DNA of 34,360 bases from Mogibacterium sp. (lineage in GTDB: Bacteria > Bacillota > Clostridia > Peptostreptococcales > Anaerovoracaceae), in NCBI GenBank assembly GCA_017505405.1, contig JAFVPI010000013.1, forward strand, positions 1 through 34,360. Reading direction: 5' to 3'. Positions 1 through 18,733 of the stretch are shown one piece after another (the first letter of the stretch is position 1; every line of letters begins with the position of its first letter). The position numbers and the translations under genes were made by a program. A model generated the notes under the pieces. It was not told where the DNA came from, did no database searches, and was given only the letters and a program-made list of their open reading frames with translations.

Positions 1-287
1 AGAAGGTTGTTCTCGCGGATCGCTACTGTGGAGAATCTGTCGGCCGTGCCCATCTCGGCAGCTGTCAGCACGACTCCGCGCAGGCAGCCCGCGGCGCACA
101 CGAATATTTCGTGTGCCTCCGGGATGAGCATCCCGGTGTGGACTATGTTCCACGTGCCGCGGGCCGGAGATGAATACTCCAGCCCCGACCTGAACGGCGC
201 CGGGAAGCCCGCGTCCGCGATCCTTACATGTGGGATCTCATCCGCACTCAGCCTTTTATTCTGTTTTTCGTTTACTTTTTTCAGCAT
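1..287 (-). CDS. Nitrogenase component 1-like protein (NifD/NifK-like), N-terminal fragment
   Basis: The reading frame opens with an ATG at 287, overlaps the stop of the upstream NifH-like gene by 7 bases (ATGCTGA) and runs off the window edge with no stop, giving about 95 residues. After a basic N-terminus it contains [20 protein letters not shown] followed by CAAGCLRG and VLTAAEMG. This resembles the P-cluster-type cysteine region near the start of component-1 proteins (NifD, NifE and the nitrogenase-like group). Together with the adjacent Fe protein it should form the catalytic half of a two-component reductase that receives electrons from the NifH-like partner. The substrate is unknown. 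It could instead be a scaffold of the NifE/N kind. The class call is fairly secure from these motifs and the context; the subgroup cannot be assigned from a fragment. Confidence 0.72.
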
Positions 288-1051
288 TTTCTCATTCCCG
301 AATTGCATATCTCAAGGAGCTTCTTAGCCAGCCTGCGGTACTCTCCGGCCATTTCGCTGTCAGGGAAAGCTTCGATGACAGTTTTTCCGAGGTCCTCCGC
401 GTCAGTGACCGTCTCGCTCCTGCTAAGTTCTCCGATCACCTCGGAGTGGATGTCCGAAGCGAGTTCCGCTACCTTCGCGTCCTCATCGCGGACGTTCCTG
501 CGGTTGAGTATGATGCCGCCGAGCGTTGCGTAGCCTCTGTCCTTAAAGCCATCGAGCGCGACTGCTATATTCGCGGCGGCATGGATGGCCATGTTCTCGC
601 CCGAAGTGATCACGAACACCTTGTCGGCATAGCCGCCGCGCATAGGCATCGAAAATCCGCCGCAGACCACATCGCCCAGCACATCATAGATGACGACATC
701 AGGTTTGAATGTCTCATATGCGCCTTTTTCCTTAAGCTTGTCGAGAGCTGCGATGATCCCGCGTCCCGCGCATCCGAGGCCCGGAGTAGGACCGCCGGCC
801 TCCACACAGATGACTCCGCCGTAGCCTTCCTTTACCATATCCGAAAGTTCAAAGGCGTTCTTGCGTTCTCTTACAAGATCGAGCACCGTAGTCATGTCGC
901 CCTGTCCGTGCAGGCTAGATGTCGAGTCAGCTTTAGGATCGCAGCCTATCTGCATCACCTTGTAGCCCATGTCCGCGAGCGCAGCCGACACGTTCGACAC
1001 AGTGGTCGACTTGCCGATCCCGCCTTTTCCGTATACTGCAATTTTAATCAT
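281..1051 (-). CDS. NifH-like nitrogenase iron protein (MgATP-dependent Fe-S reductase)
   Basis: A 256-residue protein, slightly shorter than true NifH (about 270-296). It has the P-loop GKGGIGKST at residues 8-16, switch [10 protein letters not shown] at 36-44, the first [4Fe-4S] ligand Cys94 in GLGCAGRG with the Arg97 that follows it, and the second ligand Cys130 in DVVCGGF. Every residue expected of a dimeric, cluster-bridged, ATP-dependent electron donor is therefore present. In the family such proteins feed electrons one at a time to a component-1 partner; here that partner starts in the next, overlapping frame. The start ATG has an AGGAAGG ribosome binding site, 15 bp after the ABC ATPase stop. 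No full nif gene set is visible, so a nitrogenase-like (group IV/NflH, CfbC-type) role is more likely than nitrogen fixation. Confidence 0.9.
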
Positions 1052-1066
1052 TTCGAATCCCTTCCT

Positions 1067-2197
1067 CTATTCGTATGTCGTCTTCACGCTGATGTCAGGG
1101 ATGAGGCTCAGCCTGTGCGAAAGAGCATCGATCTCCGCCGCCGGTCCCTCGAGCATCACGCTTATTATGTATTTTTCGGACCTCCTGTGAGGCAGTCCCA
1201 TCCTGCCTATGAGGAGGTGGTTGTAATCCCTGAACGCGCTGTTTATGAGGGCTGCCCTCTCGTTGCTCCGCATGATCACGGTTATGGAAGCGAGTATCGC
1301 TTCCTCTTTGTGCCCTGCCTTTTCAGAAGCAGCCGCGCCTGCAGCGCCATCTGCCGCTTCCGGAGCGCCGTCTTCTGAGATCCCGACAGCCACGACGTTC
1401 TTCATTATGTTATGCGGCGTCTCCACCTCGCCTATGAGGGCATCGACACCGAAAGCATGGCGTATGTTCTCTTCGGTCACCACGCTCGTAGTATCCCCGA
1501 AGATGCTCCTGCCGTCTTTCGAAAGCATCAGCGCCTTGCCTGCACGCTGGAGCGCGTGTGCCGGGTAGTGCGTGTTGAATATGCACGCGACTCCCTCAGC
1601 CGCAAGGGCGGTCATCGCGTCGAGCACGATGAGCTGGTTCTTGAAGTCCAGATTGGACTCCGGTTCGTCGAGCACCAGTATCTCCGGTTCGGCCGCCATG
1701 GCACGCGCTATGAGCACCATCTGCAGCTCTCCGCCGCTTATCGCGTAGCACGCTTTGTCGGCCAGATGCGATATCCCAAGCCTCTCCATCACACTTTCCG
1801 CGATCTTCATATCTTCAGCGGAAGGAGCGGAAAAAGCGCCTATGCGGCTGCTCCTACCCAGGAGCACGGTCTGGAATGCCGTGTATGAAACCGCGGCCGA
1901 CCTGGCCTGAGGAACGTATGCCATCCTGCGCCAGAGCTTCGAGGCAGGTATGCTACGTATGTCTTCGCCATCGAGAAGGCTGCGTCCGCTCTGCCAGTGG
2001 AGCATGTCCATCATGCACCTGAGAAGCGTAGTCTTTCCCGCCCCGTTAGGTCCCAGCACGGCCAGTATCTCGCCGGGCCCGACCTCTATATTTATATCTT
2101 TGAGTATCTGCGGTCCGCTCTTGTATGCGAAGTTCCCGTTTTCTATCCTGAGAAGAGCCCCGCCGGAACGCGCGTCATTTCTTACCTGTCCGCTCAT
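1067..2197 (-). CDS. FecE/BtuD-type ABC ATPase fused to a C-terminal TM1266-like domain
   Basis: 376 residues from an ATG at 2197 that overlaps the permease stop as ATGA, so the pair is translationally coupled. Residues about 15-260 are a complete iron/cobalamin-type ABC ATPase: Walker A GPNGAGKTT (49-57), Q-loop Gln97, signature ISGGELQ (153-159), Walker B ILVLDEP (173-179) and switch His210. An Ala/Gly/Glu-rich linker (about 272-298) leads to a second domain (299-376) containing IGRMGLP at 330-336. That domain closely resembles the free 81-residue protein at 3414-3659, which belongs to the TM1266 'iron-only hydrogenase system regulator' family. The fusion suggests that transport is gated or sensed by the ACT-like small domain; this is inference. 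A longer frame upstream exists but lies inside the permease gene, so I rejected that start. Confidence 0.88.
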   Translation of the reverse strand: MSGQVRNDARSGGALLRIENGNFAYKSGPQILKDINIEVGPGEILAVLGPNGAGKTTLLRCMMDMLHWQSGRSLLDGEDIRSIPASKLWRRMAYVPQARSAAVSYTAFQTVLLGRSSRIGAFSAPSAEDMKIAESVMERLGISHLADKACYAISGGELQMVLIARAMAAEPEILVLDEPESNLDFKNQLIVLDAMTALAAEGVACIFNTHYPAHALQRAGKALMLSKDGRSIFGDTTSVVTEENIRHAFGVDALIGEVETPHNIMKNVVAVGISEDGAPEAADGAAGAAASEKAGHKEEAILASITVIMRSNERAALINSAFRDYNHLLIGRMGLPHRRSEKYIISVMLEGPAAEIDALSHRLSLIPDISVKTTYE

Positions 2198-3216
2198 ATG
2201 CGCCAGCCTCCGCTTCTTCTCATCAGAACTATGAAGAACGGCGCGCCTATCATGGCAGTCAGTATCGAAACAGGTATCTCCGCTGCGGATATGCTGCGCG
2301 CCAGAGTGTCTACAATTATCATGAATACGGCTCCGAAGCTCACGGATGCCGGTACTATCGAAAGATGGTTGTTGCCGAAGAGCATGCGGCACATGTGAGG
2401 GATCAGAAGTCCCACCCAGCCTACCTGTCCGCACATCGATACGCACGATGCCGTGATGGCAGTCGCCGCCACAACAGTGATTCCCCGCAGGAGCCGGATG
2501 TTTACACCCGATGCCTTCGCTTCATCGTCGGAAAGAGGCAGCAGGTTCATGCGCCATCTTATGAGCATGAAGAGTATAAGGCCGGCTATTATCACCGGCG
2601 CTCCGAGCGCGAGAGTGCGGTAATTTGCCTTGTCGAGACCGCCCATCAGCCAGTAGGTTATGGCCGGGAGCTGGGACTCGGCATCAGCCGCAAACTTTAT
2701 GAAAGATATGAGCGCAGAAAAGAGCGATCCGATCATTATGCCTGAGAGAACTATGTAGCTCAGGCCTCCTCTGTCCCTGCCCGATCCCGCGAGCCAGGTT
2801 AGAGCGACAGCAGCGCCGCCCATAAACAGTCCGAGCAGCTGTATGCCTATCAGGTCGAATCCGAGCAGTATGCCGAGGGCGGCGCCGAAAGCCGCACCGC
2901 TTGCCACGCCCAGCGTGTCCGGTGTCGCGAGCGGATTCGCGAAGAGGCTCTGGAACGCGCATCCGGACACGGAAAGTCCGGCTCCGACCAGCATTGCCAG
3001 GATTATGCGCGGGAGTCTCAGCTGCATCACGGTCTTTTCAATGAGCGCGCTTTCAGCATGTTTGCCGGACAGAGCGGCGCGGAGCACGTCAAAGACCTCG
3101 CCAGGGGCGATCGACATACGTCCGATCCCGAGAGCGATGACTGCTGCAATAAACGGCAGCACAATAAGTATTGCGATCCATGCGGCTCCAAGCCTTCCGT
3201 CTCTTCTGAGGCTCAT
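2194..3216 (-). CDS. FecCD/BtuC-family ABC transporter permease
   Basis: 340 residues with about ten hydrophobic segments, typical of the permeases that import Fe(III)-siderophores, haem or cobalamin. Recognisable family stretches include RLPRIILAMLVGAGLSVSG near residues 68-86, FANPLATPDTLGVASGAA near 92-109, and the coupling-helix region GQVGWVGLLIPHMCR near 264-278. It starts at an ATG with an AAGGA-like site at rather long spacing and overlaps the ATPase by 4 bases. No periplasmic-type binding protein is visible in the window; it may lie downstream beyond the left edge. Because the reductase genes follow immediately, the transported compound may be the substrate, a metal or a cofactor precursor of the nitrogenase-like enzyme. 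Metal-siderophore and corrinoid are equally possible. Confidence 0.9.
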   Translation of the reverse strand: MSLRRDGRLGAAWIAILIVLPFIAAVIALGIGRMSIAPGEVFDVLRAALSGKHAESALIEKTVMQLRLPRIILAMLVGAGLSVSGCAFQSLFANPLATPDTLGVASGAAFGAALGILLGFDLIGIQLLGLFMGGAAVALTWLAGSGRDRGGLSYIVLSGIMIGSLFSALISFIKFAADAESQLPAITYWLMGGLDKANYRTLALGAPVIIAGLILFMLIRWRMNLLPLSDDEAKASGVNIRLLRGITVVAATAITASCVSMCGQVGWVGLLIPHMCRMLFGNNHLSIVPASVSFGAVFMIIVDTLARSISAAEIPVSILTAMIGAPFFIVLMRRSGGWRI

Positions 3217-3413: not shown

Positions 3414-3659
3414 TTAAACTTTGGCGTAGGTCACCTTGGCATTTATACCGTCAAGACGTCCGAGCGCTCCGGTGAGTGAATTGATCTTATCCATCGGTGC
3501 GTCAATGGCTATGCTGATGATGCTTATCCCCTTTTCCTTGTACGGGATCCCCATGCGTCCGATTATATAAGCGGAATACTCATGGAGCAGATCATTCAGC
3601 ATTTCCACCCTGTCGGACTCCGTGACGATAATGCTTATCACGGCGACTCTGGTTTCCAT
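3414..3659 (-). CDS. TM1266-like (iron-only hydrogenase system regulator family) small protein
   Basis: An 81-residue protein starting at the ATG at 3659 behind an AGGAG site; an upstream in-frame start at 3722 has no such site. It fits the small ferredoxin-like/ACT-like fold annotated as 'iron-only hydrogenase system regulator' (TM1266): an N-terminal strand with VISIIV, a helix, the signature IGRMGIP (33-39), then ISIISIAID and a C-terminal strand. The molecular function of the family is not established. The same fold, with IGRMGLP, is fused to the ABC ATPase 1.2 kb downstream, so the two probably arose by duplication and may sense the same signal or form mixed assemblies (inference). Confidence 0.78.
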   Translation of the reverse strand: METRVAVISIIVTESDRVEMLNDLLHEYSAYIIGRMGIPYKEKGISIISIAIDAPMDKINSLTGALGRLDGINAKVTYAKV

Positions 3660-17873: not shown

Positions 17874-18733
17874 TCGATGAAATGAAACCGAAATATTCAG
17901 TTAAGCTGTTATGTGAATTGCTCGATGTCAGCAGATCCGGTTATTACAAATGGCTAAAAAGAAAAGATACACCTAACAGATACGAACAGGATAGAGCAAT
18001 ACTGACTGAACTGCTTCAGGACGCTCATGAGAAGCATCCATCGTATGGTTACCACAGACTTGCACAATCTGTGAGGAACGAGACGGGATGGCTGTTTTCT
18101 CACAATCTGGCACATAAATGCTGTAAACACGCAGGAATCTATTCATTGGCTAGAAAGCATCGTAAGTATCGCAAGCCTGGAGAAGAAAGCATTAAATTTC
18201 CTAACCTTGTTAGAGGCAGATGGAATGTCTGCAGACCACTTGAACTAGTAACATCAGATATGACCATGTTCAAGAACAATGGCAAGTGGTATGAATGGAC
18301 CTTACTGGTCGATGTATTCAACAATGAGATCCTGGCACATAGTGTAACGGACAAGCTGGGATACAACAAACCCTACTACGACTGTCTTGATGAATTAAAA
18401 AGACTTGCAGGAACTAAAAAAGAGCAGAACTCCCCAATCACTTTCCACACCGACCAGGGAGCTGTCTACTCATCCAAAGCATACTGCTTGGCTCATGCAG
18501 AGTATAACATAATACGATCAATGTCGCGAGGTGGCACACCTACAGACAACCCCGTAATAGAGGCTTTGAACGGGTGGATCAAGGAGGAACTATACAGGGA
18601 TTTCGATCTTGCTAATGCCCCTGACGTGCCAGCGCTCTTGGATAAATACGTTACTTACTACAACGAGGTTCGAGCTGCATATTCACTGGATTACAAAAGC
18701 CCTGTTCAATACAGGATCGAACAAGGCTTTTGA
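17804..18733 (+). CDS. IS3-family transposase OrfB (DDE catalytic part)
   Basis: The open frame runs from the slippery site; an internal ATG at 17882 gives a 283-residue version. In that numbering the DDE triad is Asp126 (TSDMTMF), Asp191 (FHTDQG) and Glu227 (NPVIEALN) with 35 residues between the last two, the IS3/retroviral integrase pattern. An HTH_21-like N-terminal segment includes HEKHPSYGYHRL. No stop or frame break is seen, so the element may still be active as the OrfAB fusion. Confidence 0.94.
   Translation, partial: RILRERRSCKEGIRYWQRKDYEIIDEMKPKYSVKLLCELLDVSRSGYYKWLKRKDTPNRYEQDRAILTELLQDAHEKHPSYGYHRLAQSVRNETGWLFSHNLAHKCCKHAGIYSLARKHRKYRKPGEESIKFPNLVRGRWNVCRPLELVTSDMTMFKNNGKWYEWTLLVDVFNNEILAHSVTDKLGYNKPYYDCLDELKRLAGTKKEQNSPITFHTDQGAVYSSKAYCLAHAEYNIIRSMSRGGTPTDNPVIEALNGWIKEELYRDFDLANAPDVPALLDKYVTYYNEVRAAYSLDYKSPVQYRIEQGF

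Follow-up and report, generated by a model that had tools for sequence, protein, structure and literature searches.

A nitrogenase-like reductase operon in Mogibacterium sp. probably belongs to a second way of building the [FeFe]-hydrogenase metal centre

The window analysed here is a stretch of 34,360 nucleotides from Mogibacterium sp. (GenBank assembly GCA_017505405.1, contig JAFVPI010000013.1) and represents the entire contig C114 of a 2.31 Mb assembly in 148 contigs. At its left end an operon on the reverse strand joins the genes of a FecCD-type importer to those of a nitrogenase-like reductase, which consists of an Fe protein (H) and, in complete relatives, the component-1 subunits D and K. 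We think it likely that this reductase (H-D-K) takes over the part of HydG, the radical-SAM tyrosine lyase, when the H-cluster of [FeFe]-hydrogenases is built; the gene set is probably part of a second, so far undescribed route to this metal centre. The chemistry of H-D-K and the nature of the imported compound we infer. In the order of transcription, the genes of the operon are:

3414..3659, reverse strand: free TM1266-like (NikR-C-terminal-like) protein of 81 amino acids (aa), the first gene of the conserved set
2194..3216, reverse strand: permease of a FecCD-type ABC importer, 340 aa (PF01032, 275 bits)
1067..2197, reverse strand: ATPase of the ABC importer, 376 aa, extended at its C-terminus by a TM1266-like domain (one frame matching PF00005 and PF21699)
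281..1051, reverse strand: nitrogenase-like Fe protein (H), 256 aa (PF00142, 292 bits)
1..287, reverse strand: start of the component-1 D subunit, 95 codons with a Cys64/Cys68 pair, cut at the contig end (base 1)

An earlier note, made from the letters of the window alone, had described in this locus a nitrogenase-like reductase operon that includes a FecCD-type importer, and the matches to PF00142, PF01032 and PF00005 bear this out. The gene order and the junctions are also seen as described: the start of the ATPase gene overlaps the permease stop (ATGA), 15 base pairs (bp) separate the ATPase from the NifH-like gene, and the start of D overlaps the stop of H (ATGCTGA). The nucleotide and cluster residues that were said to be kept in the Fe protein are present, namely the P-loop GKGGIGKST, Cys94 in GLGCAGRG and Cys130 in DVVCGGF. 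The TM1266-like domain fused to the ATPase (51.9 bits to PF21699) and the free TM1266-like gene at 3659-3414 had not been mentioned. The free protein clearly exceeds the cut-off of TIGR03959 (108.6 vs 60.8 bits), also matches PF21699 and has a relative of solved structure (PDB 2nzc).

The rest of the operon was found in close relatives. In the locus L025, whose H is 98% identical and whose permease shows 94.7% identity over 340 aa, H is followed by a D of 456 aa, then by K and by a substrate-binding lipoprotein. Since the 95 D residues of the window are 96% identical to this full-length D, the gene is cut by the contig edge; the outcome that the earlier note had named as a refutation, a component-1 frame that is itself truncated, did not arise. 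The fragment matches our D alignment A1 with 171.9 bits and is of the D2 type. Locus L024 carries the same genes with a spacer of ~380 bp between H and D in place of the overlap, and its binding protein matches PF01497. The remainder of component 1, the second subunit and the binding protein that the note had suggested looking for were hence all recovered from relatives, K and the binding protein not being seen in the window's own assembly. The FecCD-type importer is accordingly represented by permease and ABC ATPase in the window and by the PF01497 binding protein from relatives only; permease and binding protein are well conserved in this version of the set. The closest named relatives by H are Mogibacterium and Clostridiales metagenome-assembled genomes (MAGs), the majority of them obtained from ruminants such as goats and sheep.

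We compared the gene neighbourhoods of 80 loci, the best 80 of 416 relatives by likeness to the H of the window, a choice that biases the context counts to close kin. Genes were called with a custom open reading frame (ORF) script, eight families were checked by tblastn, and neighbours were counted as tblastn matches over 60 bits within the stretch of the locus. Among the 50 loci whose genomes are considered below, a few (L023, L055, L101) end before D or K, so that only H and its neighbours are visible. TM1266 is found in 66 of the 80 loci, HydE in 29, HydF in 18, one or the other of these two maturases in 35 and hyp genes in 14; all 80 carry at least one of TM1266, HydE, HydF and Hyp near H. 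Representative proteins score well above their family cut-offs (HydE 543 vs 255 bits, HydF 571 vs 326, HypE 422 vs 252, HypD 389 vs 193, HypF 776 vs 466, HypC 68 vs 48). Acetogenic clostridia (C. ljungdahlii L084, C. carboxidivorans L100, C. drakei L083 and others) show the arrangement H1-D1-K1-hypF-hypC-hypD-hypE-H2-D2-K2. In genome G236 (L134) a single run reads TM1266-hydF-hydE-D2-K2-H-D1-K1-hypF-hypD-hypE, and in G109 (L135) the order is H-D1-K1-hypF-C-D-E-TM1266-D2-K2-hydF. In three further loci (L127-L129, genomes G005, G034 and G031) D2 and K2 form a single ORF of ~840 aa, a natural D-K fusion that lies directly before H1-D1-K1-hypF.

The distribution of HydG was assessed in 196 genomes of the same class (90% completeness), which were searched with profiles for HydG, HydF and HydE and with the D alignment. 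HydG exceeded its cut-off in 126 genomes, HydF in 132 and HydE in 134. The D alignment matched 14 genomes: ten hold orthologues (at least 496 bits or the cut gene of the window; G000, G046, G109, G164, G176, G183, G194, G229, G236, G250) and four only weak matches (301-328 bits). All ten D carriers possess HydE and HydF, and HydG was over the cut-off in none of them. Among the remaining genomes with HydF, 121 of 122 have HydG (Fisher p=3.5e-14, kinship ignored). The exclusion of HydG in D carriers is well supported. Both states, HydG or D, occur within four families (f1, f45, f47, f67) and even within one genus, in which G132 has HydG and G109, G176, G194 and G229 have D. The full-length HydG scores of the class genomes fall into two groups (~800-950 and 470-710 bits), which suggests a second HydG-like subfamily.

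A similar picture emerged for the genomes of the loci, 50 of which were tested for HydG, HydF and HypD, and fewer for [FeFe]-hydrogenase and CooS; this sample possibly overlaps with that of the class. HydF was over the cut-off in 49 of the 50 and HydG in 5. An [FeFe]-hydrogenase was found in 33 of 34 genomes tested and in 32 of 33 carriers, the miss being G289 (1.2 Mb). The window's genome contains HydE, HydF and two [FeFe]-hydrogenase matches; HydG was not over the cut-off there, with no profile match better than 1.8e-21, and C. ljungdahlii gave none better than 7e-19. Several carriers show HydG-profile matches of ~160-204 bits, below the cut-off, which presumably represent ThiH. HydG is missing also from G164, which consists of one contig, and from the complete chromosome of C. 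carboxidivorans. The same gap has been noticed before: of eight clostridial acetogens that have HydE and HydF, five yielded no HydG in an independent survey, which leaves this unexplained (PMC9431212).

The sets come in two versions, one with the importer, as in the window, and one in which hypFCDE and, as a rule, a further H-D-K set are present. HypD was detected in 35 of the 196 class genomes, including 6 of the 10 D carriers, and in 14 of the 50 locus genomes; it was not found in the window's genome. A permease or binding protein adjoins H-D-K in 34 of the 36 HypD-less locus genomes vs 0 of the 14 with HypD (p=1.3e-10). The two HypD-less cases without importer are L082, which begins inside hypE, and L098, with neither importer nor hyp. 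Across the 80 loci 58 have the importer, 14 have hyp genes, none has both and 8 have neither. Among these eight, L039, L050 and L053 belong by contig position to genomes G010, G035 and G008, which carry H1-D1-K1-hyp elsewhere (L124, L126, L123), and the contigs of L051 and L071 are short. The single HypD match of C. ljungdahlii is presumably the hypD of L084, located between its two H-D-K sets. It seems from this split that the importer can take the place of the Hyp plus H1-D1-K1 half and vice versa. For CO dehydrogenase the search covered the CooS type (TIGR01702), as distinct from the archaeal CdhA type. It found none in 31 of the 40 carriers, among them the window's genome, and the enzyme was therefore rejected as a general source of CO. 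Among importer-version genomes CooS was seen in L052 and L055. Taken together, the results for HydG, HypD and CooS mean that most importer-version cells tested are without all three sources searched.

The set does not fit any of the nitrogenase-like enzymes with which it was compared. H stays below the cut-offs of TIGR01287 (nifH; 322.8 vs 394.35 bits), CfbC (311.5 vs 402), BchL (195.2 vs 345) and BchX (164.3 vs 331). D and K of L024 exceed the cut-off of the general family PF00148 only (63.9 and 85.6 bits), and all NCBIfam models they touch are far under cut-off. The D of L025 shares 13-16% identity with NifD, NifE and BchN in the alignment used. In the Fe protein phylogeny, which the earlier note had proposed as a check, H makes up a separate clade (100/99), distinct from those of NifH (100/100) and of a second H type (97/94); the tree holds only two NifH references, and its deep order is not trustworthy because BchL is a very long branch. 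A NifH-family search of the window's genome yielded one full match and one short match of 37.9 bits.

We further aligned D and K with NifD, NifE, NifK, NifN, BchN and BchB, the references being taken from plasmid records. Numbered as in PMC3464626, D2 has Cys at the places of NifD Cys88 and Cys154 and a displaced Cys four residues before the first; K has one of the three P-cluster Cys, at the NifK Cys95/NifN Cys44 place (numbering of Dos Santos et al.), which is the ligand place of NifN and BchB. The canonical P-cluster set is thus incomplete, with two of three plus the displaced Cys in D and one of three in K. In the column of the FeMoco ligand Cys275 none of the 6 D2 and 3 D1 aligned rows has a Cys. 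D contains Cys156 and Cys223, and D1 and D2 have extra Cys in common at alignment columns 221 and 297. This pattern would fit a single [4Fe-4S] cluster shared between the subunits, as in NifEN and DPOR, better than a P-cluster plus large cofactor.

On these grounds several assignments were discarded. Canonical nitrogenase was rejected, with H under the nifH cut-off and outside the NifH clade and with incomplete P-cluster and FeMoco ligand sets; this agrees with the earlier note, which saw no nif regulon. DPOR and COR fail at the scores for BchL and BchX, and CfbCD at that for CfbC, the relatives moreover having separate D and K genes, not a single CfbD. The best PDB match of H is a chain of the methylthio-alkane reductase (MAR) entry 9fmg (251.5 bits). 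MAR carries a nitrogenase-type P-cluster and a large active-site cluster (PMC12552129), and MarHDK was rejected for the missing ligand columns as judged against the Nif references, the alignment being without a MarDK row. The mlp clusters of Kountz and Balskus (PMC10418091) were set aside as group IV-A MarHDK-like genes; in the passages of that paper hydG comes up once, for C. thermocellum, where its deletion increases the expression of mlp, with no link to nitrogenase-like genes.

How could H-D-K replace HydG? The established route starts with the cleavage of tyrosine by HydG; the resulting [Fe(Cys)(CO)2(CN)] goes to HydE and from there to HydF (PMC11736057). HydG is held to supply every CO and CN ligand of the H-cluster (title of PMC3105041). 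Since the carriers keep HydE and HydF, a like iron unit must come from elsewhere, and because the set occurs mainly in [FeFe]-hydrogenase genomes without HydG it is probably part of a second H-cluster building route. H would pass ATP-gated low-potential electrons to the intersubunit [4Fe-4S] of D-K, held by three Cys of D and one of K, and D-K would reduce a bound iron or ligand precursor to a CO/CN-ligated iron unit for HydE and HydF. In the hyp version cyanide may be made from carbamoyl phosphate by HypF and HypE, with iron held on HypCD, and H1-D1-K1 or D2-K2 may provide the CO, alter the Fe(CN)2CO unit, or do both. For the window's genome, in which HydG, HypD and CooS were not found, we propose that the FecCD importer and lipoprotein take up an iron-ligand compound that corresponds to the product of Hyp and H1-D1-K1. 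Nitrogenase acting on thiocyanate gives cyanide, and acting on cyanate it gives CO. Fe proteins are able to convert CO2 into CO, and nitrogenase accepts thiocyanate as a substrate (PMC9462850), chemistry that makes the proposed precursor reduction reasonable. The anaerobic CO source of the Hyp route has been called the most pressing open question (PMC12134894), and an H-D-K set would be a fair candidate for this source.

We put forward the following specific version only tentatively, as somewhat less likely than not: the H-cluster receives its CO and/or CN, or its whole CO/CN-iron unit, from a nitrogenase-like enzyme that does not use tyrosine; in acetogens this enzyme works together with HypFCDE, H-D-K possibly being the anaerobic CO source for Hyp, and in gut bacteria such as this one an imported iron-ligand compound takes the place of the Hyp half entirely. 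The partnership in acetogens would mean that Fe(CN)2CO assembled in the Hyp manner ends up in an [FeFe]-hydrogenase. The proposal of the earlier note that the enzyme reduces an imported compound may still apply to the importer version. It is not the whole story, because the hypFCDE version has no adjoining importer; the TM1266 domains, the hydE, hydF and hypFCDE neighbours and the near-exclusion of HydG shift the likely role to H-cluster maturation. The note missed these since they only appear with relatives and whole genomes.

A number of observations weigh against the replacement of HydG by H-D-K. The evidence consists of genes, linkage and co-occurrence, the latter being an association and not a reaction; the statistics are not tree-corrected and many of the genomes are draft MAGs. 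HydG accompanies the set in the 5 of 50 locus genomes mentioned above (the MAGs L055, L056 and L072, C. thailandense L081 and C. drakei L083), and 6 of 36 genomes of the same genus are without a close H. Three of the weak D matches (G121, G187, G174; 324-328 bits, a sister group) lie in genomes with HydG and HydF, and counting these as carriers changes the p-value to 9.9e-12; the fourth (G182, 301 bits) lies in a genome without HydF and HydG. Genome G196 has HydE and HydF but neither HydG over the cut-off nor an orthologous D; it carries a hydE-hydF pair with hydrogenase matches (L141, 7301-9544) and perhaps represents a third solution or an assembly gap. Exceptions to the two versions are L028, L035 and L098, whose stretches show neither the importer nor hyp genes, and G026, which has both (L032 importer, L125 hyp) at a contamination of 5%. 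Finally, on plasmid pSPTER of Sporomusa termitida (L137, 1631-20361) a sister importer and H-D-K occur with no hydrogenase gene in view. This set sits between genes for TonB-dependent (siderophore) receptors, with an alpha/beta hydrolase behind, and is possibly a nitrogenase-like siderophore reductase, which is a separate question.

The Sporomusa set, with its receptor genes and hydrolase, also speaks for an operon of iron or metal-chelate acquisition, in which a metallophore is imported, H-D-K reduces the chelate and frees the metal, and the tie to hydrogenases is an indirect one through high iron demand. The FecCD and PF01497 importer genes would suit such a function, as would the several solved relatives of the binding protein that are named for iron or nickel complexes. 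We nevertheless regard it as unlikely, as it leaves unexplained the near-exclusion of HydG, the hypFCDE version without importer and the single run with hydE, hydF and hyp in L134. An imported corrinoid or porphyrin could instead be the substrate of a tetrapyrrole reductase of the DPOR/CfbCD type, a thought encouraged by cluster ligands of the 3+1 type, which DPOR and NifEN also have, and by the best profile scores of permease and ATPase, which fall on B12, F420-0 and corrinoid importer models, all far under cut-off. Given the CfbC and BchL scores of H, the failure of D and K at all cut-offs of specific families and, again, the unexplained exclusion of HydG, this is the least probable of the readings considered here.

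The direction of the relationship might also be reversed, with HydE, HydF and Hyp building an organometallic cofactor for H-D-K as their client, which then carries out another reduction. H-D-K does adjoin maturase genes of both hydrogenase kinds, and the extra Cys at columns 221 and 297 could hold such a cofactor; since the carriers have kept their [FeFe]-hydrogenases, which still need CO/CN iron without HydG, we judge this decidedly improbable. Still less credit is given to another gene replacing HydG while H-D-K merely travels along. HydG-like radical-SAM proteins with atypical motifs have been proposed as possible HydG in the acetogens (PMC9431212), which bears against our assignment too, and the matches of ~160-204 bits in several carriers might be read in this way. 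The best HydG-profile matches in the window's genome and in C. ljungdahlii, as given above, argue against it, and no alternative replacing gene was seen, though no systematic search was made for one. The replacement of HydG by H-D-K remains the reading we prefer.

Upstream of the operon lies a block of hypB-hypB-TrxR-like-L-2-amino-thiazoline-4-carboxylate hydrolase-MFS-TM1266, seen in Mogibacterium-type loci only. The two tandem hypB-like genes are located at 8073-7396 (identified by eye) and 7380-6700 (over the hypB cut-off). A link to nickel or [NiFe]-hydrogenase alone, at which they hint, was rejected, as the window's genome was found without HypD and the HypB block was seen in no other loci. 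The gene at 5656-4964 belongs to the L-2-amino-thiazoline-4-carboxylate hydrolase family (91.6 bits). This compound also arises from cyanide and cystine, and a link of the gene to cyanide handling is therefore conceivable. An IS3-type transposase was recognized by eye at 17882-18733.

The combination of HydE, HydF and [FeFe]-hydrogenase without HydG, also in industrial acetogens, is an admitted puzzle (PMC9431212). Our finding names a concrete gene set for it and for the anaerobic CO source of Hyp, present in cultured species. Genetic tools exist for C. ljungdahlii. If the proposed role is true, the nitrogenase superfamily gains a new job in building organometallic iron, and a traffic of metal-ligand compounds among gut bacteria may be exposed.

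In comparison with known systems, the set resembles NifEN and DPOR (BchLNB) in its composition of Fe protein, D and K and in the three Cys on D and one on K, which suggest one [4Fe-4S]; it differs in the displaced D Cys, in scoring under all equivalog cut-offs and in its neighbours. Dos Santos et al. 2012 (PMC3464626) described two linked NifHEN-like sets in each of the gut Firmicutes Coprococcus catus and Dorea longicatena, with two P-cluster-type Cys on D/E, one on K/N and no FeMoco ligands. By this description H-D-K probably belongs to the same group, for which the passages of that paper give neither a hydrogenase link nor a function. Our search of the open-licence PMC literature, to which subscription papers and most preprints do not belong, found nothing joining nitrogenase-like genes to H-cluster maturation; as far as this literature reaches the proposed role is new, and the function is apparently undescribed, as had been supposed. 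The operon is therefore the importer version of a protein group that has probably been noticed and is functionally unassigned. With the HypCDEF assembly of Fe(CN)2CO for [NiFe]-hydrogenase the alternative version shares hypFCDE, placed between two H-D-K sets, whereas the window's genome yielded no HypD. The likeness is closest to maturation by HydE, HydF and HydG: the set occurs in the same genomes together with HydE, HydF and [FeFe]-hydrogenase, TM1266 is kept as well and the presumed end product is the same, but HydG is mostly missing and H-D-K with an importer or with hypFCDE is found instead.

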